21,411 nt of DNA from a virus, in the IMG/VR virus record IMGVR_UViG_3300010397_000095, positions 1 to 21,411 of that record; one strand, 5' to 3'. The notes below the pieces were generated by a model. That model worked only from the letters and a program-made list of their open reading frames with translations. It was not told where the DNA came from and did no database searches. This document shows positions 4,483 through 21,186 of this stretch, in pieces (within the stretch, counting starts at the first letter, position 1; every line of letters begins with the position of its first letter). The position numbers and the translations under genes are program-made.

Positions 4483-5661
4483 ATGAAAAAAGCCTGTCTC
4501 ATTTCGTTCCTGGTCTGCGCTGTAGTGGCGCTGGCCGTGTTTTTTGGGTGGGAACCGCACCTGACCGTTGCCGGGCTGCCGCTTCTGGGGTTCGCTTTCG
4601 GCACGATCGACGTTGACCTCTACAGCCCCGTCACCATGATGGAGCCGTTGGAGATCCGCAAGGCCCCTAAGACCGTGTTTAAGGACACATTCTTTTCCGG
4701 GCAGCCGGACATGTTCCACGATACCCAGGAAGTTCTGGTGGACAAGCTCCGGATGGGTGAAGAGGTTGCTGTCTACTGTGCCCCTACCCATGACGGCAAG
4801 GCGGTCGACCGTGAAGGGTACATGACCAACAAAGTCAAGGCGGCATACGTCAAACCGTTCCGCCCCCTCACTTTCCAGGATCTCATCCCCCGTGACGCCG
4901 GTGAGATGTTGATGCAGCCCCAGGGAGTGGCAGGCCGTCTGCAGGCGAAAGCCGCCCGTCTGCTCGGTCGTGACATGGTGCAGCTCGATGATCTGATCAC
5001 CCGCCGCGAGGAAGCCATGTGTGCCGAAGTTCTTGAAACCGGCCAGATTCATGTTGTCGGAGAGGGTGTGGACTTCACTGTCGACTTCCTCATGCCGGCC
5101 GCCAATAAGGGAACTCTTGTCGGCGATGCTCTCTGGACCAGCGCCTACTGCGATCCGTACACCTGGCTGTACGGCCTTTTCCGCGGCATGATCGTGCGCG
5201 GCTGGCGGACCCCGAGAAAGATGTTCCTCGGCGGCAACGTCATCGATCCGTTCATCACGAACCCGAACGTTAAAGACCGCCTTTCCACTCAGCGTGCCAT
5301 CGACTCAGGCCGGATCAACCCGCAGGACCTCCCGGACGGCACTACCTACCAGGGGACTATCAACGTCAACGGGTATCAGATCGATGTTTATGGTTATGAC
5401 TACAGCTACACGGAAGCCGGTGTCCGTAAGTATGCCATGCCACAGGACAAGATCATCGTCGGCCCGAGTGAGACCACCAACCACATGTGCTACGGAGCCA
5501 TCCAGCACCTCAAGGCCGCAGAACTCGGCATGGTGGAAAAGAAACGCTTCCCCAATACCTACACCAACCAGAGCGGCTCTATCCGTTATCTCCAGATCGA
5601 GAGCTCACCGCTGCCGAACCATCGCGAAGCCGATAACTTCGCTTGTTTCAAGGTCATCTAA
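4483..5661 (+). CDS. major capsid protein (lambda gpE family) with hydrophobic N-terminal leader
   Basis: A 392-aa protein that forms the capsid shell. The body from about residue 41 (TIDVDLYSPVTMMEPLE, then VFKDTFF) and the KAAYVKPFRPL and DIL-type helices fit the lambda gpE/HK97-fold family. The central TRREEAMCAEVLETG and the MVRGWRTPRKMF region also fit. Gene order (protease, D, E) agrees. The start at 4483 has GGAGG at 7-base spacing, better than the alternative at 4468. The odd feature is residues 1-40: MKKACLISFLVCAVVALAVF is a basic N-terminus plus a hydrophobic core with an ALA site, followed by a second hydrophobic stretch. Such a leader is not normal for a capsid protein. It may be removed by the phage protease or target assembly to the membrane. 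The capsid call is confident; the role of the leader is unknown. Confidence 0.85.
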   Translation: MKKACLISFLVCAVVALAVFFGWEPHLTVAGLPLLGFAFGTIDVDLYSPVTMMEPLEIRKAPKTVFKDTFFSGQPDMFHDTQEVLVDKLRMGEEVAVYCAPTHDGKAVDREGYMTNKVKAAYVKPFRPLTFQDLIPRDAGEMLMQPQGVAGRLQAKAARLLGRDMVQLDDLITRREEAMCAEVLETGQIHVVGEGVDFTVDFLMPAANKGTLVGDALWTSAYCDPYTWLYGLFRGMIVRGWRTPRKMFLGGNVIDPFITNPNVKDRLSTQRAIDSGRINPQDLPDGTTYQGTINVNGYQIDVYGYDYSYTEAGVRKYAMPQDKIIVGPSETTNHMCYGAIQHLKAAELGMVEKKRFPNTYTNQSGSIRYLQIESSPLPNHREADNFACFKVI

Positions 5662-6120: not shown

Positions 6121-6528
6121 ATGTTCAGAAAATCGATTATCCCGGCTCTCATCATAACCGCCCTCATTGTCGGCTTCGCCTTTGCGATGCCAGCGGGGCA
6201 GCTCCCCTTGCCGGTGGGGAAACCGCAGACGCCTATTCAGAACCTCAAGGCCCCCGCCTCCTCTTACGTAAAATCCCGTTGCGATACCGTTACCGGCACT
6301 TCTGCCGTTCAGAAACGGTACAGCGCGGCCGGTAAAGTCGGATTCTTCGCCACCTCCTACCATCCAACCACAGGGGCGCCTATCGTGACGAAATGGCAGG
6401 AAGACGGGAAGCAGGTTTGGGTGGGGTCATCCTATGAACTAACCAATAGCGAGGGAACGGCCGTGACTTATGTAACTTCGGTCGCATTCACCAACCGCAC
6501 AACCGCCTTCTGTGCCAGACGGCAGTAA
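6121..6528 (+). CDS. small exported protein with signal peptide, function unknown
   Basis: A 135-aa protein with a strong AAGGAGGG ribosome-binding site. Residues 1-22 (MFRKSIIPALIITALIVGFA plus FA) form a clear Sec signal peptide ending in AFA, so the mature part should be periplasmic or beyond. It has a Pro-rich start and two cysteines, in SRCDTV and TAFCARRQ, that could form a disulfide linking both ends. The middle (VGFFATSYHPTTGAPIVTKW) looks like a small beta domain. It is immediately followed by an intrinsic terminator. An exported protein inside a head operon is unusual. It may be a lysogenic-conversion or superinfection-type gene, or part of an unusual virion, but its function is not recognised. 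Confidence 0.75.
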   Translation: MFRKSIIPALIITALIVGFAFAMPAGQLPLPVGKPQTPIQNLKAPASSYVKSRCDTVTGTSAVQKRYSAAGKVGFFATSYHPTTGAPIVTKWQEDGKQVWVGSSYELTNSEGTAVTYVTSVAFTNRTTAFCARRQ

Positions 6529-6579: not shown

Positions 6580-6616
6580 CCAGAGTGCCCGATCTTTTAA
6601 CCTTTCCGGAGCCAGC

Positions 6617-7030
6617 ATGCCGACCATAGTGAAACCAGAAGATCTGCAAGCCCTTGGCTTTTCGGCTGAATCATTCGGTGCCGTTGTGGACTTTCCGGGC
6701 TACCTTCAAGCGATCCTTGATGAACAGGAGGCACTGCTCACTTTCAGGATCAGCGCGGCAACGGTAGCCGACTCCGCTCTCAATACACTGGTTGCTCTCG
6801 CCGAAAAATCCCTCTCTGCTTCGGAACTTTGTCAACGCCGTATCAACCGGCTGATGGAGAATATCAATCAAGACACACCCGCCATGATCGATAAGATCCG
6901 TAAGCAGCAGGACAAGTATATTGAGACCGCAGAGAACACGATCAAGCGGTTGCTTTCGACTCCTCTTTCGCAGGATAGCAGCGGGTTTTCGGTTGGCGTA
7001 GTTGAATCCTCCTCTTTGGGGTGTAGCTGA
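6617..7030 (+). CDS. putative head-tail connector (adaptor) protein
   Basis: A 137-aa, mostly helical protein without recognised motifs. The ATG at 6617 has CCGGAG upstream. The frame is open from 6512, but that would run through the terminator hairpin, so 6617 is preferred. Visible segments are MPTIVKPEDLQALGFSAESF, then helices SALNTLVALAEKSLSASELC and IDKIRKQQDKYIETAENTIK. Length, helical content and position between the capsid module and a gp10-like protein fit an adaptor or stopper protein that bridges portal and tail. The function is inferred from synteny only. Its stop shares a base with the next start (TGATG). Confidence 0.6.
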   Translation: MPTIVKPEDLQALGFSAESFGAVVDFPGYLQAILDEQEALLTFRISAATVADSALNTLVALAEKSLSASELCQRRINRLMENINQDTPAMIDKIRKQQDKYIETAENTIKRLLSTPLSQDSSGFSVGVVESSSLGCS

Positions 7031-7572
7031 TGTTTACCCTCGGCGTCACAGTCTCTGGCGATAAGGTCGTCCTGAGCAACCTACAGAGGTTTGAGACTGC
7101 CGTGTTTACGGGTGCTCAGAGGGGGCTGCAGAAATCAGTGCGAGGGATTCACCCCCTGGCAATGGCGTTTCTGAATGGAGCAGGTGGGGCAGGCCGCAAG
7201 GCGCAGATCGTCGGCCCGTCTAGGGGATTTACCAAGAAATCCGGCGAGACCGTCAATTTCAAACCGCAGCTTTCCGGAGCTGGCGCTTATCCGGTCCCTG
7301 TACGGACTGCAAACCTGAAACGCCTGCTTGATTTTGTCGATCCCGGGCAGAGCAAATTTTCAAACGGGGTCACCTTTGTTGCCGGCCCGAATGAGGCAGT
7401 TCTGTATGACTCGGCAGAGTACGCCATGACGATACACCAGGGGACCGGCAGCAGCGAGAAATTCGGTCGCCGGCCTTATGTCGAGGATGCTCTGAAAGCC
7501 TTCAACCAAGGGGCAGGCATCGTTAAAGCTGTTGAGCAGGAAATTGCCGCTGAGATTCAAAAGGTTAAATAG
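7030..7572 (+). CDS. tail completion/minor tail protein (HK97 gp10-like)
   Basis: A 180-aa protein resembling the HK97 gp10/lambda gpZ group, which acts in head-tail joining or tail completion. A basic middle stretch (FTKKSGETVNFKPQ) precedes AYPVPVRTANLKRLLDFV at about residues 90-105, matching the usual pattern of proline, then RTGxLRRS. This is followed by a strand-rich core (VAGPNEAVLYDSAEYAMTIHQGTG) and FGRRPYVEDALKAF, the usual RPFlxxAl C-terminal pattern. The start overlaps the previous stop. In most siphophages the tail terminator gene follows directly; here a 4.2-kb accessory cassette intervenes before it. Confidence 0.75.
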   Translation: MFTLGVTVSGDKVVLSNLQRFETAVFTGAQRGLQKSVRGIHPLAMAFLNGAGGAGRKAQIVGPSRGFTKKSGETVNFKPQLSGAGAYPVPVRTANLKRLLDFVDPGQSKFSNGVTFVAGPNEAVLYDSAEYAMTIHQGTGSSEKFGRRPYVEDALKAFNQGAGIVKAVEQEIAAEIQKVK

Positions 7573-7580
7573 GGGGGGGT

Positions 7581-7859
7581 GTGAAGTCATCGTCACTTTT
7601 CAGTCTAGTGCTTGTTGTCGGGATCGTTGTCTTCTCCCTGAGCGTCGCGGAAGCTGCCGAAGATCTGATCGTCGCAGTTGACAAGGCTACTTTGGTCAAG
7701 GCAATCGGCTTTGCGATTCTCGCCTTCCAGGCGGAGATCTGGCGCAATCAACGGGCACTGTTCAAGAGTAACGAGACACTCGGTAAAGAACTGAAAGCGC
7801 TGCAGGGTTATTGCCGCGGTAAGAATGGCGACTGCGCCGATGACAGTGGGGAGGAATAG
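7581..7859 (+). CDS. small membrane/exported protein upstream of lysozyme (holin candidate)
   Basis: A 92-aa protein starting with GTG at 7581; a run of eight G directly upstream serves as the ribosome-binding region. Residues 5-22 are strongly hydrophobic (LFSLVLVVGIVVFSLSV) and end in AEAAEDL, so they form either a signal peptide with an AEA site or a transmembrane helix. A second weaker hydrophobic stretch (KAIGFAILAFQAEIW) is followed by a charged helix and two Cys near an acidic C-terminus. The placement 3 bases before a lysozyme gene makes it a holin or antiholin candidate. No holin family motif is recognised, so the call rests on size, hydrophobicity and location. Confidence 0.6.
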   Translation: MKSSSLFSLVLVVGIVVFSLSVAEAAEDLIVAVDKATLVKAIGFAILAFQAEIWRNQRALFKSNETLGKELKALQGYCRGKNGDCADDSGEE

Positions 7860-7862
7860 AGA

Positions 7863-8531
7863 ATGTATCTACTGAGAACTTTTACCAAAACTCTCCTGCT
7901 CCTGCTGGCTCTGTCGCTGCCGATCGGGTTGCTGGCGGAGCAGATCAAGTCGGTCGAGTCCGCTGCCCGCTGTCAGATTGCCCTGACAACCATCTTCAAG
8001 AATGAGGGCGGCTTCCAGAAACTTAAGAACGACAGCGGCAACTGGACCGGCGGCAAGATCGGCGTCGGCCGTCTCGTCGGCACAAAATACGGGATCTGCG
8101 CGGCAAGTTATCCAAAGGTGGACATTCCCAACCTAACTCTGCAGGAGGCGGCCAGGTACTACCAGAGGGACTATTGGAATCCGCTGCACCTCGGAGACAT
8201 CAAGAGCCAATGGCTCGCCACCATGTTTCTGGACACAGCAGTCAATTGCGGTACCGGGACGGCCGCTATCCTGATCGTGAGGACCAGTAACGTCTTGAAT
8301 GGCCAGGAGGAAGACTCTCCGGCTGATCCGGCTTTAACAGCGAAAGAGGTGGACTGGATCAACGCCTACACTAAAACCCGCTGGTATGAGGGGGAAAAGG
8401 ACAAGTCACGCCGCGCCCTGTTCGGTGCCGTATTCAAGGAAATGCGCAGTCGCAGGTATGTGGCTATTGTCCGGCATGATCCGAAAAAGCTTGTCTGGCT
8501 CCCCACTTGGATGGAGCGGGTTTATGAGTAA
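7863..8531 (+). CDS. exported endolysin, GH108 N-acetylmuramidase type
   Basis: A 222-aa lytic enzyme that should hydrolyse the glycan strands of peptidoglycan. TIFKNEGGF (Glu48) is the family's catalytic EGG motif, followed by a D-x-G-x-x-GG segment, TKYGICAASYP (usual TkyGIt), LTLQEAARYYQRDYW and FLDTAVNCGTG, all in the expected order for GH108. Residues 1-25 (RTFTKTLLLLLALSLP then IGLLA) form a signal peptide or signal-arrest anchor, so the enzyme is exported by Sec rather than depending on a large holin hole. GGGGAGGAATAGAG precedes the ATG. It sits between two membrane-protein genes, forming a lysis cassette. Confidence 0.85.
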   Translation: MYLLRTFTKTLLLLLALSLPIGLLAEQIKSVESAARCQIALTTIFKNEGGFQKLKNDSGNWTGGKIGVGRLVGTKYGICAASYPKVDIPNLTLQEAARYYQRDYWNPLHLGDIKSQWLATMFLDTAVNCGTGTAAILIVRTSNVLNGQEEDSPADPALTAKEVDWINAYTKTRWYEGEKDKSRRALFGAVFKEMRSRRYVAIVRHDPKKLVWLPTWMERVYE

Positions 8532-8555: not shown

Positions 8556-8993
8556 ATGAACCGGTTAAATCTGTATCAGGTAATACAGCTCATTCTGCTT
8601 TTTCTCTTAATTGCATTCGGGGCCGCTCTGCTGATCGGCTGGGTAACGGTCCCAGATGGGACGTCCGGGGAATGGTTCAAACAGGTATGGGTAGTGTTTC
8701 TGCTTATCCTTTCCCCGCAGTCTCTTGCCGCGATCATCGCCAAGTCTGACGGAGTGGATAATAGCACCTCGGTCAAACTCCCTGACATCGCAGCAGACAA
8801 AACAGCCGGTTTCGCCTCTCTCCGCTTGCTTCTGGCGCTGACATGCCTGGTGACAATCCTTATCGTCATGGCTGGCTGTACGACCGTCAGCTGTTCGCTC
8901 CAATCCGGTGAGCGGAATACTATCAAGTCCGATCAGGACCAGACACCCACCTCCCCAATATCGACAACAGTGCAAGGGATCCCGAAGCTATGA
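8556..8993 (+). CDS. multi-span membrane protein with internal lipobox (holin/spanin candidate)
   Basis: A 145-aa protein with three hydrophobic segments: residues 9-31 (LLFLLIAFGAALLIGWV), 41-62 (VWVVFLLILSPQSLAAII) and 90-107 (LLLALTCLVTILIVMAG). The last is followed by C108, giving VMAGC, which resembles a lipoprotein signal site. The remaining 37 residues are polar and rich in Ser, Thr, Gln and Pro, like the exposed part of a small outer-membrane spanin. It lies just after the lysozyme with an AAGGAGAGG site. It may be a holin with a membrane-anchored tail, or a holin and o-spanin read as one protein. Whether Cys108 is lipidated cannot be told. The start of the next gene overlaps its stop (ATGA). 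Confidence 0.6.
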   Translation: MNRLNLYQVIQLILLFLLIAFGAALLIGWVTVPDGTSGEWFKQVWVVFLLILSPQSLAAIIAKSDGVDNSTSVKLPDIAADKTAGFASLRLLLALTCLVTILIVMAGCTTVSCSLQSGERNTIKSDQDQTPTSPISTTVQGIPKL

Positions 8994-9442
8994 AACACTT
9001 TCTGCTCACTATTTTCGTGGGAGTGTTGGGGCTCGCCGCGATTATTGGCACTTCAATGGCGGCAGATATGGGTGTTTACAACATCATCATGCAAGCGGGG
9101 GAGGATTTCCGCCTGCCCTTGACGATGAATAGTTGCGCCGACAATCCATTGCCCGTAGATCCCTCTAAGTGCAAAACGCTTGTACCGATAAAGTTGAACG
9201 GTTACAGCTACAAGGCTCAGTTCCGCCAGGCTCCAGCTCCAGCCGGAGCGGTTTATGCCACGTACAGCGCCGTGTTTGTAAATCTGTCGGCCGGCCGGGT
9301 TGACGTACGGCTGTCCAAAGCTCAAACCTCCGGGACCAGCGGGAAAAGCGGCGTATGGGACCTTCGGGAAACGAATCCGAGTGGACTTAGTTCCTATCCG
9401 ACGGGCGGCACTGCTACGTGCAAGCCGACTGCGACCAGATGA
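8990..9442 (+). CDS. signal-peptide-bearing fibre-type domain protein
   Basis: A 150-aa protein whose mature part resembles the small phage structural domain often encoded just before collagen-like fibre genes. It has YNIIMQAGEDFRLPLTM (usual QGxDF..pl pattern), then LNGYSYKAQFRQ (usual GyxaxmqiR), then NLSAGRVDVRLSKAQTSG and GVWDLRE (usual G.i.l.lsa..T....G.Y.Dl). Unlike those relatives it starts with a Sec signal peptide, MKHFLLTIFVGVLGLAAIIG, with site SMA at residues 22-24. The start is fixed by a 4-base ATGA overlap with the upstream stop. It is coupled to the collagen-like gene downstream in the same way. The role of the exported domain is unknown. Confidence 0.7.
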   Translation: MKHFLLTIFVGVLGLAAIIGTSMAADMGVYNIIMQAGEDFRLPLTMNSCADNPLPVDPSKCKTLVPIKLNGYSYKAQFRQAPAPAGAVYATYSAVFVNLSAGRVDVRLSKAQTSGTSGKSGVWDLRETNPSGLSSYPTGGTATCKPTATR

Positions 9443-10443
9443 AAACGCGAGTCTCGATCATAGCCGTTCTTTCGGTGTTCTGCGCAACGATGGCTTTAGC
9501 TGTCCCTGCGACTATTGTTATCTCCCCCCCTCCGGCAAATGTTATCCAGATCACCGGCCAGAACCCGCCGAGCATAACCATTACCCGGCCGGTTTCCGAT
9601 GTCGTCACTATTACTACTCCAGGCCCTCAGGGGCCGAGGGGGATAGACGGATCCATTGGCGTCGATGGTGCCCCAGGTCCCACCGGCCCCCAAGGTCCGG
9701 CAGGAGCAACCGGAGCCACCGGACCTCAAGGACCAACCGGGGACACCGGCTCACAGGGGCCGAGGGGTTACGACGGTTACGACGGAAGCCAGATTTTCAC
9801 CGGGACCGGAGCTCCAGTTTCCGGTACCGGCACACTCAGTGACTATTACCTCAATACCTTCAACGGCGACATCTACCTCAAGGAGGGGAGCCCTGCCGCC
9901 TGGACGCTGAAGGGTAATCTCAAAGGCCCGTCGGGCACCAATGGCGCTAATGGAACAAACGGCACCAATGGCACCAATGGTAAGACCGTCCTGAACGGCA
10001 TCGATGCACCGGGGAACGGCCTCGGCGTTGATGGCGATTTTTATCTCGACACCGCCAATGCCCATTTTTACGGACCGAAAACGGCCGGCGCCTGGGGAAC
10101 ATACATCGATCTAGTAGGCCCCCAGGGACCGCAAGGTCCGCCTGGTGCTTCATCCTCTATCACTCAGACCGGAGTGCTCCAGGTGCTCGATGATGCCACC
10201 GATGGTTCAACACTCTGGGTACAGCAGGGCGCGACCGAGCAGGCCACTGACGCTAAAATGGGTGTCAAGGACCGTCTCGGCAATGCCAAGCAGTGGGTGG
10301 ACAGCAACGGCACCATGGTACGTCAGTGTATCACCAGCGACACCTCGCCAGCCTTCAAGATGCTCAGCAGCGGCGGTGCTGTTATCTACACGGTCAGCTG
10401 CGACAACACCATGACCTTCAGCGGTACGGTGACCATAAAATGA
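9439..10443 (+). CDS. collagen-like repeat protein with signal peptide (fibre-type)
   Basis: A 334-aa protein beginning with signal peptide MKTRVSIIAVLSVFCATMAL (ALA site at about residue 22). The ATG at 9439 overlaps the upstream TGA; the in-frame ATG at 9418 lies inside the previous gene and is not used here. Gly-X-Y triplets run from about residue 62 to 112 (GPQGPRGIDGSIGVDG and onward). They recur as TNGANGTNGTNGTNG near residue 175 and as GPQGPQGPPG near 230. Between the collagen blocks lie two related modules, one with YYLNTFNGDIYL and one with GDFYLDTANAHFYGPKTAG, the kind of spacer found in trimeric collagen-like fibres. The C-terminal 100 residues are a globular beta domain. It should form an exported trimeric stalk or fibre. 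Confidence 0.75.
   Translation: MKTRVSIIAVLSVFCATMALAVPATIVISPPPANVIQITGQNPPSITITRPVSDVVTITTPGPQGPRGIDGSIGVDGAPGPTGPQGPAGATGATGPQGPTGDTGSQGPRGYDGYDGSQIFTGTGAPVSGTGTLSDYYLNTFNGDIYLKEGSPAAWTLKGNLKGPSGTNGANGTNGTNGTNGKTVLNGIDAPGNGLGVDGDFYLDTANAHFYGPKTAGAWGTYIDLVGPQGPQGPPGASSSITQTGVLQVLDDATDGSTLWVQQGATEQATDAKMGVKDRLGNAKQWVDSNGTMVRQCITSDTSPAFKMLSSGGAVIYTVSCDNTMTFSGTVTIK
9946..9981 (+). repeat. short tandem 9-bp repeats encoding Asn-Gly-Thr units
   Basis: Units of nine bases close to GGCACCAAT/GGAACAAAC follow each other in frame and encode Asn-Gly-Thr triplets inside the collagen-like gene. Each unit adds or removes exactly three residues, so copy number can vary without a frameshift. Confidence 0.6.
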
Positions 10444-10700
10444 GAATCGTCCTCCTGATAACGTTACTCCTGGCCGTTGCCATCGGGGCAATCGCCGAGA
10501 CCTGCACCCCCTCCGGGGAGAATTACATCAGGTTCTATCCTCCGCAAGGGACCGTGCTGAATCATCTCCCGGCTACCGACCCGCGTTGTGTGCCGTATTC
10601 GAGAGATACGTTTTCCGACTCCAAACAGACCCCGCTCTGTTTTCAATGTCATCCCCATCAATATCAAGGCTGGATGGCGAAATACTGGAGGAAAGCATGA
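10440..10700 (+). CDS. small exported protein with CXXCH heme motif (mini-cytochrome candidate)
   Basis: An 86-aa protein starting at an ATGA overlap with the collagen-like gene. Residues 1-19 (MRIVLLITLLLAVAIGAIA) are a signal peptide with an AIA site. The mature part is 67 residues and contains C67-F-Q-C70-H71, an exact c-type cytochrome heme-attachment motif, followed by HPHQYQGWMAKYW. Two more cysteines (C22, C50) could pair, and H42 or H73 could be the second axial ligand. Export to the periplasm, where heme c is attached, fits a monoheme cytochrome. A single CXXCH can occur by chance or bind zinc, so this is a candidate. A ribosome-binding site for the next gene lies at its 3' end, and the two overlap by ATGA. 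Confidence 0.6.
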   Translation: MRIVLLITLLLAVAIGAIAETCTPSGENYIRFYPPQGTVLNHLPATDPRCVPYSRDTFSDSKQTPLCFQCHPHQYQGWMAKYWRKA

Positions 10701-11356
10701 AACGATTTTTACTGTTGCCTCTGCTTATCCTGCTGACCACATGCAGCGAATGTTACGCCGGGTACACAATTATCATCCGCGAGCAGGTCACGCCTAAAAC
10801 CATCATGGTCCAGGGAGTCGGCAAGCTCGAAGCGGCGCTGAACCCCGGACCGGTTCCGGTTTATCCGGCAACAGCCAAGCGTCTGGTTTACAGGCCTGCC
10901 GACTTTGACATTTACAATCCGGATACCGCCAAACGCGCTGAACTTTGGGAAGACGACAACGGCACTGCCACCAGCAGCCAGATATTTGCCACATTCCCCC
11001 AGATCCGACAGAAAAAAGAAGCGGAGATCCGCGCCGAAGGTTCCCGCCGTCTGCTGGCCTTGGCACAACCCTACAGCGCCGAAGAGAGGGAGAGCTGGCC
11101 GCAGCAGAAAGAGGAGGCGGTGGAGTTTCACGACACTTACCAGCCCGAAACGCAAAGCAGCCCCTGCCCTTGTGAAATGATTCGCAACATGGCCACCGCC
11201 CGCGGCATTCCCGTATCCGTTATGGCCGACAAGATCCTTGAGAACGCAGCCCTGTTCAAAGCCGCTGCCGGTCAGATTTTGGGGATTCAGCAGGGGCTTA
11301 TCGACAGCATCGCCACCATTACCGACTTCGAAACCCTGGAGAATCTGACATGGTGA
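10697..11356 (+). CDS. exported protein with tail-fibre-assembly-type C-terminal domain
   Basis: A 219-aa protein. The ATG at 10697 has CTGGAGG upstream and overlaps the previous stop; the longer reading from 10586 is rejected. Residues 1-21 (MKRFLLLPLLILLTTCSECYA) form a signal peptide. The C-terminal two thirds resemble phage proteins encoded next to tail fibres: AEGSRRLLALAQPYSAEERE, SWPQQKEEAVEF, then MIRNMATARGIPVSVMADKI and KAAAGQILGIQQGLIDSI. This matches the pattern of la..y...E..sW..Q..EA, then RGi....la.kI, then a.ilg.qQ seen in fibre-adjacent proteins. Relatives would act in the cytoplasm; the signal peptide here is unexpected. A C-P-C pair (SSPCPCEM) lies before the last helices. 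Confidence 0.7.
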   Translation: MKRFLLLPLLILLTTCSECYAGYTIIIREQVTPKTIMVQGVGKLEAALNPGPVPVYPATAKRLVYRPADFDIYNPDTAKRAELWEDDNGTATSSQIFATFPQIRQKKEAEIRAEGSRRLLALAQPYSAEERESWPQQKEEAVEFHDTYQPETQSSPCPCEMIRNMATARGIPVSVMADKILENAALFKAAAGQILGIQQGLIDSIATITDFETLENLTW

Positions 11357-11763
11357 AGCAGCGGATCTATTACTGCGCCGGCTACAAGTACCAGCTGGCA
11401 ACTGATTATGAGACCCTCATCAGCATCAAGCCGGGGGCGGACATCGTGTCCGATTTCATCATCCTCGATACCGTCGGCAACCTGACGATCAGGACCGGTT
11501 ATGCGTGGGACGGTCCGAGCGGTCCATGCCTCGATATCCCGAGTTTTATGAGGGCGTCCCTGGTCCATGACGCGCTTTACCAACTTATGAGAGAGGGGAG
11601 CTTGCCGCAGTCAGCAAAAGAGCAGGCAGACAAGGAGATGCGCCGGATATGCAAACAGGATGGCATGACCTCGGTACTGGCGGAAGTCGCCTACCAGGGT
11701 GTGGATCATTTCGGGTATAGCAGCTGCGAAAAACAAGAGCGGGAAGTGTTGACCGCACCGTAA
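11350..11763 (+). CDS. DUF1353-like phage protein
   Basis: A 137-aa protein overlapping the previous gene by 7 bases. It has no export signal, unlike the four genes before it. Family-like motifs are IRTGYAWDGPSGPCLDI at about residues 45-60 and MRASLVHDALYQLMREG at about 64-80 (usual HDxLY pattern), then ADKEMRRICKQDGM. DUF1353 proteins are common in tailed phages near tail, fibre or lysis genes; their function is not established. It closes the accessory cassette; the next gene begins the tail module. Confidence in the family is moderate to good, and no function is claimed. Confidence 0.72.
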   Translation: MVKQRIYYCAGYKYQLATDYETLISIKPGADIVSDFIILDTVGNLTIRTGYAWDGPSGPCLDIPSFMRASLVHDALYQLMREGSLPQSAKEQADKEMRRICKQDGMTSVLAEVAYQGVDHFGYSSCEKQEREVLTAP

Positions 11764-17400: not shown

Positions 17401-18598
17401 GAAAAAAGCCGTGGAGGATATCTACAATGCCGCCGGCGGCAAGGAGAACCTGCTGATCCGCTCCCTCCGCGCTACCGGCAACGATGCCGAGGCGAGCCTG
17501 CGCGAGCTGATGGCGAACCACTATAAGGAGCGCCGGGACGCGGAGCAATCCGGTCTGGTGGATCTTGCCGAGCTGGACAAGGTCCAGACCCTGGAGCGGA
17601 ACAAGCTCATCAGCGATATCCAGACCCAAGCCAACAATAATATGCTGGCGGCCCAGCAAAACTACGCCGATCAGATGACCAGCATTGCACGGGAGATGGA
17701 GAACAGTGTCAAGATCAGTGCCCTGAATATGATCAAGGAACTCCGAACCGGCCCTCTCTCCGGGCTCTCTCCTGAGGCCGCCTACCGCCAGGCGCAGGGG
17801 CTCTTTGCCACTTCCAGTAATGCCAGCGATATAAAGATGTTCGTGGAAGCTTCCCGCGCCTACAACGGCAGCGGCCCCGGCTTCCAGTCGGATCTTCAGG
17901 CGGCCCTCAACAAGCTTGGTGCCCTTGCGGGGATCGGCGACAACCCAACTCTTGATCTGGCCCAAAAGCAGCTCGACCAGCTGGAGATGATCCGGCAGAG
18001 CACTGAGAATACAACCTCTGCGGTAATGTCCCTGGCAGCTATGAAGGATGCCCAGCAGGCCGCCGCTGTCGCTGCAGCGCTTCCTTCCGTAGCTGCGGCA
18101 GTAACATCTACCCAGGCAGCTACTACGGCAACGGCTGCTGCTGCGGTGGATTATGATGCGGCCATGGCAGCCAAGGCGGGCGGGATTGCTCAGTCTGTCA
18201 TGAATTATGCTGTCGGCCTCACTTCTACTTCAGACTCCCGTTGGGATCTCACCAAAGACGGCATTATTAACATCGGCGATGCGGTGGTCTGGCAACAAAT
18301 CGCTTCCGGAGCCCGCAAATGGTCGAGCCTGGGGCTGCCGGCATTCGCCATGGGTGGAGATTTTAACGGCGGTTTAAGGATTGTCGGCGAATTTGGCCCT
18401 GAACTCGAAGCTACCGGCCGGTCACGTATTTTCAATGCCGATCAGACCCGCAACATTTTGTCGAGTGGCTCTGCCGACAACCGCGAGATGGTGGATGAAC
18501 TTAAAGCGATCAAGTCTGAGCTTGCCGACGTTAAACGCCAGCTCGTTGCAAAGCTGACTGATATCGAATCCCCCTTGCGCAGGGTTGTGAACAAGTGA
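14444..18598 (+). CDS. tail tape measure protein with dockerin-like calcium loop
   Basis: A 1384-aa protein that sets tail length and is ejected during DNA entry. At the known rate of about 0.15 nm per residue, the tail would be near 200 nm. GAGGATGTC precedes the ATG. The N-terminal 330 residues resemble siphophage tape measures (LITSAIEKTIELLQRLKG, LGVSTTALSEHQKV). Coiled-coil-like charged helices span about residues 345-450. A Gly-rich hydrophobic stretch follows at about 682-735 (AAGGGGGGSGSNW). The C-terminus has FAMGGDFNGGLRIVGEFGPE, the usual tape-measure end motif. Residues 1268-1279 (DLTKDGIINIGD) match a dockerin/EF-hand calcium loop. Codon use and base composition change at about 16.49-17.0 kb. 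The stop overlaps the next GTG start. Confidence 0.85.
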   Translation: MNNGNGTITLTLAVDGQGNVTGAVNDVSQSVGRMASETRSASGRMASDMDNIGSSFGRMVAAFTTGNLITSAIEKTIELLQRLKGKVEDSARYAAHVDTLGVAMHAVGNNAGYTSAQMDEYEKSVKRMGITTEAARQTLTQTAGAEMDVTKAAQLARVAQDAGVIGTINSSEAYMRMVQGIRSGETEILKTIGINVSFERSYQKLADSLGVSTTALSEHQKVQARQNAVLEYGINISGVYEASMTSTGKMITSMSRYYDELKLKFGESFAPSLGILIDNTTHRLKELLHWAEENKGAIAEFAKNMATIVNAGVNTIAHPIDTLGKVLISPFVGGEEDIAEENRQAEVEKKYNEMMAKKTEADRMKKMAEARRIRDKAEADALSAKAAEAEINQYNQFVVAFNDKIRAIEAGDTTLSAHEREIQKVRGEYEKLIEQYPKERSELEALERYHVQETRKRQEQADAIKATSDEFKALWQVWEHTPAEGPLVIGRTGEEMKAELDLSRLSLEMKLSEIDAQEKFYQITTGQAAQERTSILAQQLQLETDIYNKITEEGAVGDLARQQQLQRIVQINEKLLEQQKILNDSTAIGGATSALQEYARAAADIGSQTKNLVADMFKGMEDALVSFARNGKFEFRALADSIINDMLRIAIKQQITGPLSNVNYAELIGRGGSMLRGLFGGSGSTPAVEDNGLDTGNGVTGGSSVVAAGGGGGGSGSNWTSYLGGLGGGVGIAATVLYKMGQSYFGSGGTWNKHDSEQKYTMGGFNSIGAGVPMLLDYFTKGGLMGTAWKTTGAGVELGLNNGQLSAQQYLDQNRKKSWWRGTETAPTAYTDLDSQWSDFVARQYEGIRNAIKNQGSTIGMTITDEMLDAVNVEKIKIDMHGKSAEEQQKAIEAGFRDLNNQMIEKANPAIVNMERLGEDAVAAMERLTNLKLTNNALQMQILEAQNLQKTSEYMGLVNVQREHELVGLDASTQALQRYLWALQDQKKAVEDIYNAAGGKENLLIRSLRATGNDAEASLRELMANHYKERRDAEQSGLVDLAELDKVQTLERNKLISDIQTQANNNMLAAQQNYADQMTSIAREMENSVKISALNMIKELRTGPLSGLSPEAAYRQAQGLFATSSNASDIKMFVEASRAYNGSGPGFQSDLQAALNKLGALAGIGDNPTLDLAQKQLDQLEMIRQSTENTTSAVMSLAAMKDAQQAAAVAAALPSVAAAVTSTQAATTATAAAAVDYDAAMAAKAGGIAQSVMNYAVGLTSTSDSRWDLTKDGIINIGDAVVWQQIASGARKWSSLGLPAFAMGGDFNGGLRIVGEFGPELEATGRSRIFNADQTRNILSSGSADNREMVDELKAIKSELADVKRQLVAKLTDIESPLRRVVNK

Positions 18599-20334
18599 GC
18601 TGTGAATACGCATATGCCCTGGAGATAAATGCTCACACTGGTTTCGAGCTGACAACTCTGTATATCTCTACTTCTCCGGCGCTGGTCACCGGTCCTGCCG
18701 ATACTCCCCCGTCAACCGCTTTCCTTCCCCTCCTGATCCAGCCGGGCAACTATTCCATCAGCTGCTTCCAGGGTGGCAAAACCTACGGCAAGGCCTCCAT
18801 GGGTTTCGGCGAGATCATCCTGGAGAACCGGGTGCCGGAAGGCGAAACCGTCGGCGTACTCGATTATATACTTAATTGGGCGTTCGACGGTCGTGAAGCG
18901 GTTCTGCGGCGCAGTAAGGATATCACCGCCCCCTATCCGTCCGGATGGCGTACCGTCTGGACCGGCACACTGGATCAGCCCCTGCCGAAAATAGACGGCT
19001 ACAACTCCGGCACCATGACTATCCCTTGGCGCGACCGGATGGTAGAGCTGCAGGTACCACTGCCGCTGGCCGTATTCAAGGGGGACAATGATCTCCCGAA
19101 CGGGACTGAAGGCACGGCAGACGATCTCAAAAACAAGCTGAAGCCGCTGATATTGGGACAGGTTTTAGAGGCCGGCATGGTCTGCGTGAACACAGCAAAA
19201 CAGATCTGGGCGGCTGCCCCTCCAATCGGCGGCATGCTGGATCTGGTTGAAGATTTCGACGCGCTGCCCGATGTCGACGCCGTGACCGATTTCTTCGGGG
19301 TGATCATGGCCGGTTCCGCCGGGGAAGATTTGATCGAGGATTTCGACGCATTGCCTGATGTCGATGCGGTCAACGAGTTTTTCGGAGTGCGGCGCAGCGG
19401 CATAGCGAATGCGACCGTCCGGATCGCGGGTGGGGTAATCCCGCAGGAAGCGGAATATGCCGATGTGGACGACATGATTGCCAATGCCCCCACTCCCGGT
19501 TATTGCCGGATTTTGAGAACGCATGGCTATGCGCGTTTTGATGATCTCCCGGTCGGACCGGTGACGGTCAGCTGTACCGATGCCAGCGGCGCCCGGCATA
19601 CCATCGGCAGCCTGGTGCGGAGTTCCTTGCGCGATTACATGCGCTGGCCGATCACCAGGCTGAACTCGGCAGACCTGCTCACCCTGGAAACCAATTGCAC
19701 GCTGCCCATGGGTGTTTGGATCAAGGATTCATCCTGGAACGTCGATCAACTGCTCGACTATTTCTGCCAATCGTATGGTGTCTGCTATTTCTTCGATGAG
19801 CTCGGAATATTCCGGATCTTCCAGGTGACCGATCCGGCCCTGCAGCCTGTCGATTTCACCCTAACCCAGCTTCAGATCAAGTCGATCACAAGGGTCAGTA
19901 ACGAGGGTGTCCCGGCTAAAGCCGTCCGACTCCGGCAACAACGCAACTGGACCGTGCAAACTTCCGGCTTGGTCGGCGGAGTATCCGCAGTGGACCGGGC
20001 CTTTCTTGCCACCGAATGGAGGGAGGCTCTTTCGAATAACAGTGTCACCGCCGGTAAACATTTATTGGCTCAGACGCTCCAATTCGATACCGCCTTCGCC
20101 GTGGATGCCCAAGTGGAAGCAGATCGAAAGAAAGACCTCTATAGCGTTCGAAGGGATTTTTATGAAATAGACCTCGATCATAATGAGATCGATTTTACAA
20201 CGCTTCGGATGGGGATGGCCGGCAATATCGAGTTTGCCGGTCGGCTTGAGTGTGGGCTGTGGAAGAAGATGCTCATGACCGGTCTATCAGCTGATATTAG
20301 GAACAAAAAAATTACACCGATTGTATGGGGGTAG
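18595..20334 (+). CDS. tail hub/tip-type protein with internal duplication
   Basis: A 579-aa protein starting at a GTG that overlaps the tape measure stop (GTGA). It belongs to a phage family encoded between tape measure and fibre. The N-terminal part has YTGTLDQP-type strands (VWTGTLDQPLPKIDGYNSGT) and TIPWRDRMVELQVPLPL. Later come NAPTPGYCRILRTHGYARFD with VTVSCTDASGARHTIG, then NVDQLLDYFCQSYGVCYFFD, a strand-helix pattern found in hub or baseplate proteins. Residues from 219 and 248 (29 residues apart) repeat EDFDALPDVDAV..FFGV. It seems to replace the several separate lambda tip proteins. The exact family name is not certain, and its role as hub is inferred from position and size. Confidence 0.65.
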   Translation: MSCEYAYALEINAHTGFELTTLYISTSPALVTGPADTPPSTAFLPLLIQPGNYSISCFQGGKTYGKASMGFGEIILENRVPEGETVGVLDYILNWAFDGREAVLRRSKDITAPYPSGWRTVWTGTLDQPLPKIDGYNSGTMTIPWRDRMVELQVPLPLAVFKGDNDLPNGTEGTADDLKNKLKPLILGQVLEAGMVCVNTAKQIWAAAPPIGGMLDLVEDFDALPDVDAVTDFFGVIMAGSAGEDLIEDFDALPDVDAVNEFFGVRRSGIANATVRIAGGVIPQEAEYADVDDMIANAPTPGYCRILRTHGYARFDDLPVGPVTVSCTDASGARHTIGSLVRSSLRDYMRWPITRLNSADLLTLETNCTLPMGVWIKDSSWNVDQLLDYFCQSYGVCYFFDELGIFRIFQVTDPALQPVDFTLTQLQIKSITRVSNEGVPAKAVRLRQQRNWTVQTSGLVGGVSAVDRAFLATEWREALSNNSVTAGKHLLAQTLQFDTAFAVDAQVEADRKKDLYSVRRDFYEIDLDHNEIDFTTLRMGMAGNIEFAGRLECGLWKKMLMTGLSADIRNKKITPIVWG

Positions 20335-20337
20335 AAG

Positions 20338-21186
20338 ATGAGCCAGAACGATTATAATCAGACCCGTGAAGAGGCTATGAGCGGTGAAGCTTTACGAGCG
20401 GCATTTAACTTAGCTGATCAGGCGCTCGCGTCGAACAACATCGGGGCAGCCGCGCCGGCGACTACATATCCGGGCATGTGGTGGCCGGACACGACTAGCG
20501 GCTGGATGAAACAACGCAATGCTGCAAACTCGGCATGGGTCAATATATTCCTGTTGGCAGTCGGTCCCGCCCAGTTGGACAGTAACGGCAATTTAGCTGT
20601 AACGGCAACTGCCAACAGCGCGGGGTCTCATAAAATGTTTAAATCTTGTACCGGGACCGCAGCAGTTATCGAAAACGGTCATGCGACAACGCCCAATGGA
20701 TCCGATATTACTTTCAGTGGGTGTGTCCCAAATAACACCACTCAGTATTTCCTTCGTGGCAACGATACGTCGACCAGCCGGTTTTTCATTTATTCCAATG
20801 GAAATATGCAAAATGCGAATAATTCCTACGGGGCCATCTCTGATGTGAAGCTGAAACAGGATATTGTTGATGCGGACTCACAGTGGAACGATGTTAAGGC
20901 GTTCCGGTTCCGTAAATACCACCTCAAATCAGATCCGGCCGGGCCTCTTTTGCTAGGGGTTATTGCCCAGGAGCTCGAACAAGTCTCGCCGGGCTTGATC
21001 GATGAGACGCCCGATTTCCAGGAGCGAATAATCGTTGGAGACGATGGTGAGGAATATGTAGAACGAATTGAGTTGGGGACCACTACTAAATCCGTAAAAT
21101 ACAGCGTACTGTATCTGAAGGCTGTGAAGGCGCTGCAGGAAGCCATGGCGCGGATTGAAGCGCTTGAGGCGAGAGTAGGCGTGTAA
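20338..21186 (+). CDS. tail fibre/tip protein with C-terminal S74 self-cleaving chaperone domain
   Basis: A 282-aa receptor-binding-type protein. The N-terminus has TTYPGMWWPDTTSGWMKQRN and AANSAWVNIF, typical of the head-proximal part of tail fibres. The middle is a beta-rich region with TNGS-like turns. The C-terminus is an intramolecular chaperone of the S74 (endosialidase) type: ISDVKLKQDIVDADSQWNDV carries the Ser168-Asp169 site where self-cleavage should occur. FRFRKYHL, LLLGVIAQELEQVSPGLI and KSVKYSVLYLKAVKALQEAM follow in family order and end in a coiled coil. The domain trimerises the fibre and is then released. GGGGGTAGAAG precedes the ATG. It is the last phage gene before the boundary. 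Confidence 0.85.
   Translation: MSQNDYNQTREEAMSGEALRAAFNLADQALASNNIGAAAPATTYPGMWWPDTTSGWMKQRNAANSAWVNIFLLAVGPAQLDSNGNLAVTATANSAGSHKMFKSCTGTAAVIENGHATTPNGSDITFSGCVPNNTTQYFLRGNDTSTSRFFIYSNGNMQNANNSYGAISDVKLKQDIVDADSQWNDVKAFRFRKYHLKSDPAGPLLLGVIAQELEQVSPGLIDETPDFQERIIVGDDGEEYVERIELGTTTKSVKYSVLYLKAVKALQEAMARIEALEARVGV

Follow-up and report, generated by a model that had tools for sequence, protein, structure and literature searches.

Four consecutive genes in the analyzed stretch of viral DNA (21,411 nucleotides; hereinafter the window), denoted A to D, are predicted to encode a tailed-phage collar, a collagen-like fibre and two helper proteins, each with a Sec-type leader at the N-terminus. We propose, with a probability of about 0.4, that this cassette represents a tailed-phage collar-plus-fibre unit that has become a Sec substrate and docks on virions at lysis; export of the cassette proteins, judging from their sequences, appears highly probable. 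Synthesis and assembly of tailed-phage tail and fibre proteins are assumed to be cytoplasmic and, to our knowledge, export of fibre parts is unusual for these phages; we found no report of Sec leaders on tailed-phage fibres in the open literature. In a group of uncultivated tailed phages, a fibre and its prospective anchoring collar both bear predicted secretion signals, as do two helper proteins in most cases. The same cassette was detected on four other viral contigs (L002, L003, L032 and L065, with a contractile-tail sheath gene on L003), which together with the window make up the sample of five analyzed here.

Predicted Sec leaders of four coupled genes

The cassette genes are joined in an uninterrupted chain of ATGA overlaps that begins at the upstream membrane protein gene (Table 1), each start lying inside an ATGA with the preceding stop; the coupled starts described in the initial annotation (8990, 9439, 10440 and 10697) were found to be exact. 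Leaders were called with a home-made rule that requires a positive n-region, an uncharged hydrophobic core (h-region) and small residues at positions -3 and -1. This sequence rule recovered 12 of the 12 textbook E. coli signal peptides used as controls and gave 21 positives among 1010 genes (2.1%) from other phage loci. All four window proteins satisfy it as Sec/signal peptidase I substrates, in agreement with the earlier claim that the four genes carry Sec-type leaders. The predicted cuts fall between MKHFLLTIFVGVLGLAAIIGTSMA and ADM in A, between MKTRVSIIAVLSVFCATMALA and VPA in B, between MRIVLLITLLLAVAIGAIA and ETC in C, and between MKRFLLLPLLILLTTCSECYA and GYT in D. Given the 2.1% base rate, four leaders in a row are far from a chance expectation (approximately 2e-7, assuming independence), and chance was rejected as an explanation.

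That the leaders are not annotation artefacts, as had been argued from the overlaps, is borne out by the lack of any other usable start near the N-termini of B and C and by retention of the leaders in relatives. In D, the next Met is only at codon 37. In A, there is an internal ATG at codon 27 (position 9068), which is the exact start point of the leaderless relatives; the leader-bearing relatives lack this Met, and their starts lie upstream of the leaders. A wrong start is thus rejected for B and C and is unlikely for A and D. We also rejected the possibility that the leaders are lipoprotein signals: a lipobox-like LAS-C is present only in D of L065, and LTT-C in the window does not fit.

Table 1. 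Features of the cassette region, in window coordinates
Feature	Position	Strand	Basis or remark
Endolysin (glycosyl hydrolase 108) with its own predicted N-terminal leader	7863..8531	+	PF05838, E 3.3e-15
Upstream membrane protein of the lysis region, two hydrophobic segments	8556..8993	+	coupled to A by ATGA
Gene A: predicted Sec leader (residues 1-24) and T5 p132/BppU-N-like Ig-fold collar (adaptor) protein	8990..9442	+	PHROG 1084; AlphaFold2 model compared with T5 p132
Gene B: predicted Sec leader (1-21), then a beta-rich segment, a Gly-X-Y collagen-like stalk containing GDFYLDT/YGPK modules, and a C-terminal domain in which two Cys are invariant	9439..10443	+	PF01391, tail-fibre PHROGs
Gene C: 86 aa, rich in Pro, Tyr and Cys; predicted Sec leader (1-19) and, at the C-terminus, the c-type haem motif LCFQCH	10440..10700	+	sequence
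Gene D: predicted Sec leader (1-21) followed by a small beta domain and a helical PHROG 2618 domain at the C-terminus; probably an accessory or chaperone protein linked to the fibre	10697..11356	+	PHROG 2618
PHROG 1158/DUF1353 gene, overlaps the 3' end of D, no leader	11350..11763	+	E 3.3e-21

A predicted T5-type collar, a collagen-like fibre and two helper proteins

The match of A to PHROG 1084 (E 3.6e-12) spans residues 25-149. In an AlphaFold2 model of A (built on 4 sequences, mean pLDDT 71), the leader is disordered, and the top PDB match of the model is the collar protein p132 of phages T5 and DT57C (Foldseek E 1.5e-7). Residues 28-150 of the model align with residues 6-140 of p132, with Z 10.0 and rmsd 3.6-3.9 over 115 aligned residues for T5 p132 (7qg9_J) and its DT57C counterpart (8hqz_Q). 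The relatives of A in the viral structure library BFVD are often 105-120 aa in total, which suggests that mature A corresponds to an entire p132-type protein, to which the leader has been added. According to the model, mature A is predicted to be an Ig-fold collar-adaptor protein of the T5 p132/BppU-N type, and as such it may contact the tail tube.

In T5, p132 is an Ig-fold collar that carries the grafted long tail fibre, and an unassigned density between the p132 monomers most probably corresponds to the fibre N-terminus (PMC10038345). The p132 collar and long tail fibre pb1 of T5, the DT57C homologues and the N-terminal domain of BppU from TP901-1 resemble the A-B pair in that the p132 Ig fold covers the entire mature length of A and a fibre gene is next to it: in the window and the other leader-bearing loci, the gene immediately after A is B, and in 25 of 29 leaderless loci A is followed by a collagen-like partner. 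In contrast to A, but like its 29 leaderless relatives, T5 p132 has no leader; the cassette further differs in that its fibre is collagen-like and that C and D are added.

B contains a collagen domain (E 5.6e-12). The two Cys of its C-terminal domain are invariant in the window, L003 and L032 (alignment A5) and are also kept in L065. A Gly-X-Y stalk in a phage fibre is likewise found in the collagen-like prophage fibres of E. coli, the EPcl proteins (PMC3368898), which have phage-fibre N- and C-terminal domains; B differs from them in its leader and in its C-terminal domain, which contains the two conserved Cys. Neither "signal peptide" nor "signal sequence" was found in a search of the EPcl paper text (PMC3368898).

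The C-terminal LCFQCH of C is a CxxCH motif, the attachment site of c-type haem. The motif occurs along with a leader in the window and L003 and with a weak leader in L002, and is absent in L065; among other genes, its frequency is 8 in 1463. From its sequence, C possibly binds haem, and we do not file it as a cytochrome. Since Cys are present in leaderless fibres as well, those of B and the CxxCH of C hint only faintly at an oxidising, haem-loading compartment.

For D, matches are limited to PHROG 2618 (residues 79-217, E 9.5e-14) and PHROG 1604, both uncharacterised families, and a fold search yielded no significant structural match. The other members of PHROG 2618, which share the C-terminal helical domain with D, adjoin tail-fibre genes in other phages and, outside the cassette, have no leader. 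The L065 protein retains the exported-type N-terminal half and has a different C-terminal half. D is probably a fibre-linked accessory or chaperone protein, and a leader on it would be understandable if the fibre that it assists folds outside the cytoplasm. L002 additionally encodes, between B and C (7541-7753), a small exported-looking protein that ends with a hydrophobic stretch and RRRRK, resembling a C-terminal sorting signal. The description of the products as fibre-type in the initial annotation stands, with A as a T5 p132-like collar, B as a collagen-like fibre and D as a PHROG 2618 protein; the specific identity of A, the CxxCH motif of C, and the leaders on the 6121 gene and the major capsid protein (see below) had been missed.

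Conservation and distribution of the leaders

Conservation of the leaders in relatives, proposed with the initial annotation as a check, was observed. Leaders are present on A and B throughout the five cassette phages (5/5 each); the leader of C is clear in three and weak in L002 (no positive charge in the n-region), C being cut off in L032; and D has a leader in the window, L003 and L065 but not in L002, that is, in 3 of the 4 phages where D is seen. Among these same-clade homologues, the starts are not downstream of the leaders. The identity of the leaders between cassette phages is only about 21-52% (21-26% for A, 24-43% for B and 43-52% for D), with all Sec features retained. For A and most pairs of B, similarity is higher between the mature parts than between the leaders; in D, the leader is conserved at least as well as the mature part.

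A profile search of all loci at hand identified 29 further relatives of A in other phages, none of them with a leader (0/29), and the 25 collagen-like B partners identified next to these genes also have none (0/25, two of these gene calls being doubtful). In a tree of mature A domains, in which many branches are long and the exact placement is soft, the leader-bearing proteins form one group (support 85/81) that implies 1 change of leader state, and 0 of 500 shuffles gave a value as low as one. Taken together with the pairing of leaders on A and B, this grouping suggests that the collar and the fibre gained or lost their leaders together, and is compatible with a single origin. Two A genes depart from the common layout: in L032, the leader lies inside an open reading frame fused in frame to the upstream head-tail adaptor gene (6607-7827), which is either a real fusion or a sequencing error, and in L065 (6979-7440) there is an in-frame TAA within the domain.

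Among cultured phages, there are no close relatives of A and D, and for B only one short fibre-motif match. A plasmid search with D alone yielded no relative. A host genome scan with A1 gave no match, and a scan with alignment A5 gave mostly fibre-motif matches; A was not matched in 395 genomes of one phylum, a result that is uninformative on the host.

Predicted leaders are also found outside the cassette, and those of the 6121 gene and the major capsid protein widen the phenomenon. The former encodes a small protein of the head module with a Sec leader (window 6121-6528; L154 8485-8913), in which the leader sequence changes between the two phages and its character stays; leader-bearing proteins are encoded at comparable positions in L032 (6270-6713), in L150, which belongs to the L065 phage (4337-3894), and in L148, which belongs to the L003 phage (4602-4210). 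The frame of the major capsid protein (window 4483-5661; L154 6836-8011; L065/L150 5974-4835) is preceded by a strong ribosome-binding site, and its product has two hydrophobic segments at the N-terminus, the second weaker than the first. This extension is absent from the homologues in cultured phages, which align no earlier than residue 46-48 of the TTG-started frame, and between the window and L154 its sequence drifts while hydrophobicity is kept. The terminase large subunit of the L065 phage (L150 12517-10886) has a signal-like hydrophobic N-terminus of approximately 30 residues, and its start overlaps the upstream gene. The window endolysin has a leader, in contrast to those of L002 and L003. 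Leader-bearing fibre-like proteins are encoded in the structural regions of L115 (7653-10981) and L035 (4851-8630), apparently a separate case, the A/B pair of L115 being leaderless. The L003 phage further carries what looks like a diversity-generating retroelement (L148/L149 record positions 18064-21061), with a reverse transcriptase, an Avd-like gene and two targets, the 3' ends of which match the template with adenine-biased mismatches; the targets have no leader and are not cassette genes.

Timing and site of action of the predicted unit

In the cassette phages, A is coupled to, or lies directly 3' of, a late gene (encoding a lysis-region membrane protein, a tail terminator or a head-tail adaptor), the endolysin gene is upstream of the cassette in 4 of the 5 phages, and a scan for promoter-like sites gave nothing above chance level. 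Conventional leaderless fibre genes are located elsewhere in the window (an S74-type fibre, 20338) and in L003 (fibre and fibre-assembly-type genes). This organization indicates that the cassette is, as far as can be read from the genomes, an extra appendage unit that is expressed late. A lysogenic-conversion gene with its own promoter was rejected on the same grounds, namely the coupling of A to upstream late genes and the lack of a promoter signal; these also leave the suggestion that the fibre is built on the surface of the lysogen with no positive support.

Under the proposed scheme, the four proteins would be translated late in infection from the lysis/head-tail operon, exported via Sec and cleaved by signal peptidase I. 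The collar A and the fibre B would fold outside the cytoplasm, with the help of D, itself exported in most of these phages, as a putative chaperone; the periplasm would allow disulfides to form in B and possibly haem to be attached covalently to C. At lysis, the mature collar and fibre would leave the cell alongside the virions and most likely attach to them, forming an additional appendage distinct from the conventional tail fibre made in the cytoplasm. Export itself, the disulfides and haem, the chaperone role of D and docking on virions are all steps that we infer. Against this scheme, an exported collar could meet the tail only after the inner membrane opens, for which we found no precedent; the cassette is not uniform (leaderless D in L002, interrupted A and missing CxxCH in L065, fused A in L032); and the fold of D has no significant match.

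The main competing possibility, which we consider rather unlikely, is that the exported collar and fibre never join virions and instead work in the periplasm or at the surface of the cell that makes them, perhaps in masking the phage's own receptor against trapping of progeny on debris, in superinfection exclusion or in cell adhesion. The outward orientation of all cassette leaders, the adjacent lysis genes and the availability of other fibre genes for the virions of the window phage and L003 are consistent with such a role, and there is a precedent in PblA and PblB of Streptococcus mitis phage SM1, structural proteins that act outside the producing cell, although they reach the surface through holin and lysin and bind phosphocholine (PMC2920869); the likeness drawn here is one of role. 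However, A keeps the p132 collar fold, the known role of which is a ring on the tail, and no outer-membrane anchor or autotransporter domain was recognised in the cassette; for action in the lysogen, the late-gene coupling and the lack of a promoter signal above chance are additional obstacles. Because of the virion-collar fold of A, docking on virions is favoured over a purely envelope role; considering also the conventional leaderless fibres in both phages with enough sequence, we infer that joining virions at lysis probably fits better than a fibre on the lysogen surface.

It is improbable that the hydrophobic N-termini remain uncleaved and, together with the N-terminal extension of the major capsid protein, tether virion proteins to the inner membrane for assembly there. 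The two hydrophobic segments of this protein in the window, L154 and L065 and the N-terminus of the L065 terminase would suit such anchoring, but the h-regions of A to D are short, with small residues at -3/-1 as is typical of cleaved signals, their positive n-regions predict that the protein body is outside the cytoplasm, and the capsid protein of L003 has no such segment. Least credible of all is that the leaders are unused, through internal initiation or decay of the genes into passengers: the codon-27 ATG of A, the stop in L065 and the fusion in L032 would allow for this, but B and C have no alternative start, the internal Met of A is missing from leader-bearing relatives, and leader character is retained across five diverged phages.

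More broadly, and with still more caution than for docking at lysis itself, these phages might represent a clade that builds a virion part outside the cytoplasm, with the collar, the fibre and mostly the accessory proteins exported, disulfides and perhaps haem acquired in the periplasm, and the product joining DNA-filled particles at lysis; the head-module protein and a membrane-anchored capsid protein may share this strategy. Secretion signals on a conserved collar-fibre unit would imply one of two things: a virion part that matures in the periplasm, with access to disulfides and haem, or conversion of a phage fibre into an envelope protein. In either case, signal peptides predicted for phage structural genes should not be put down to misassigned start codons.
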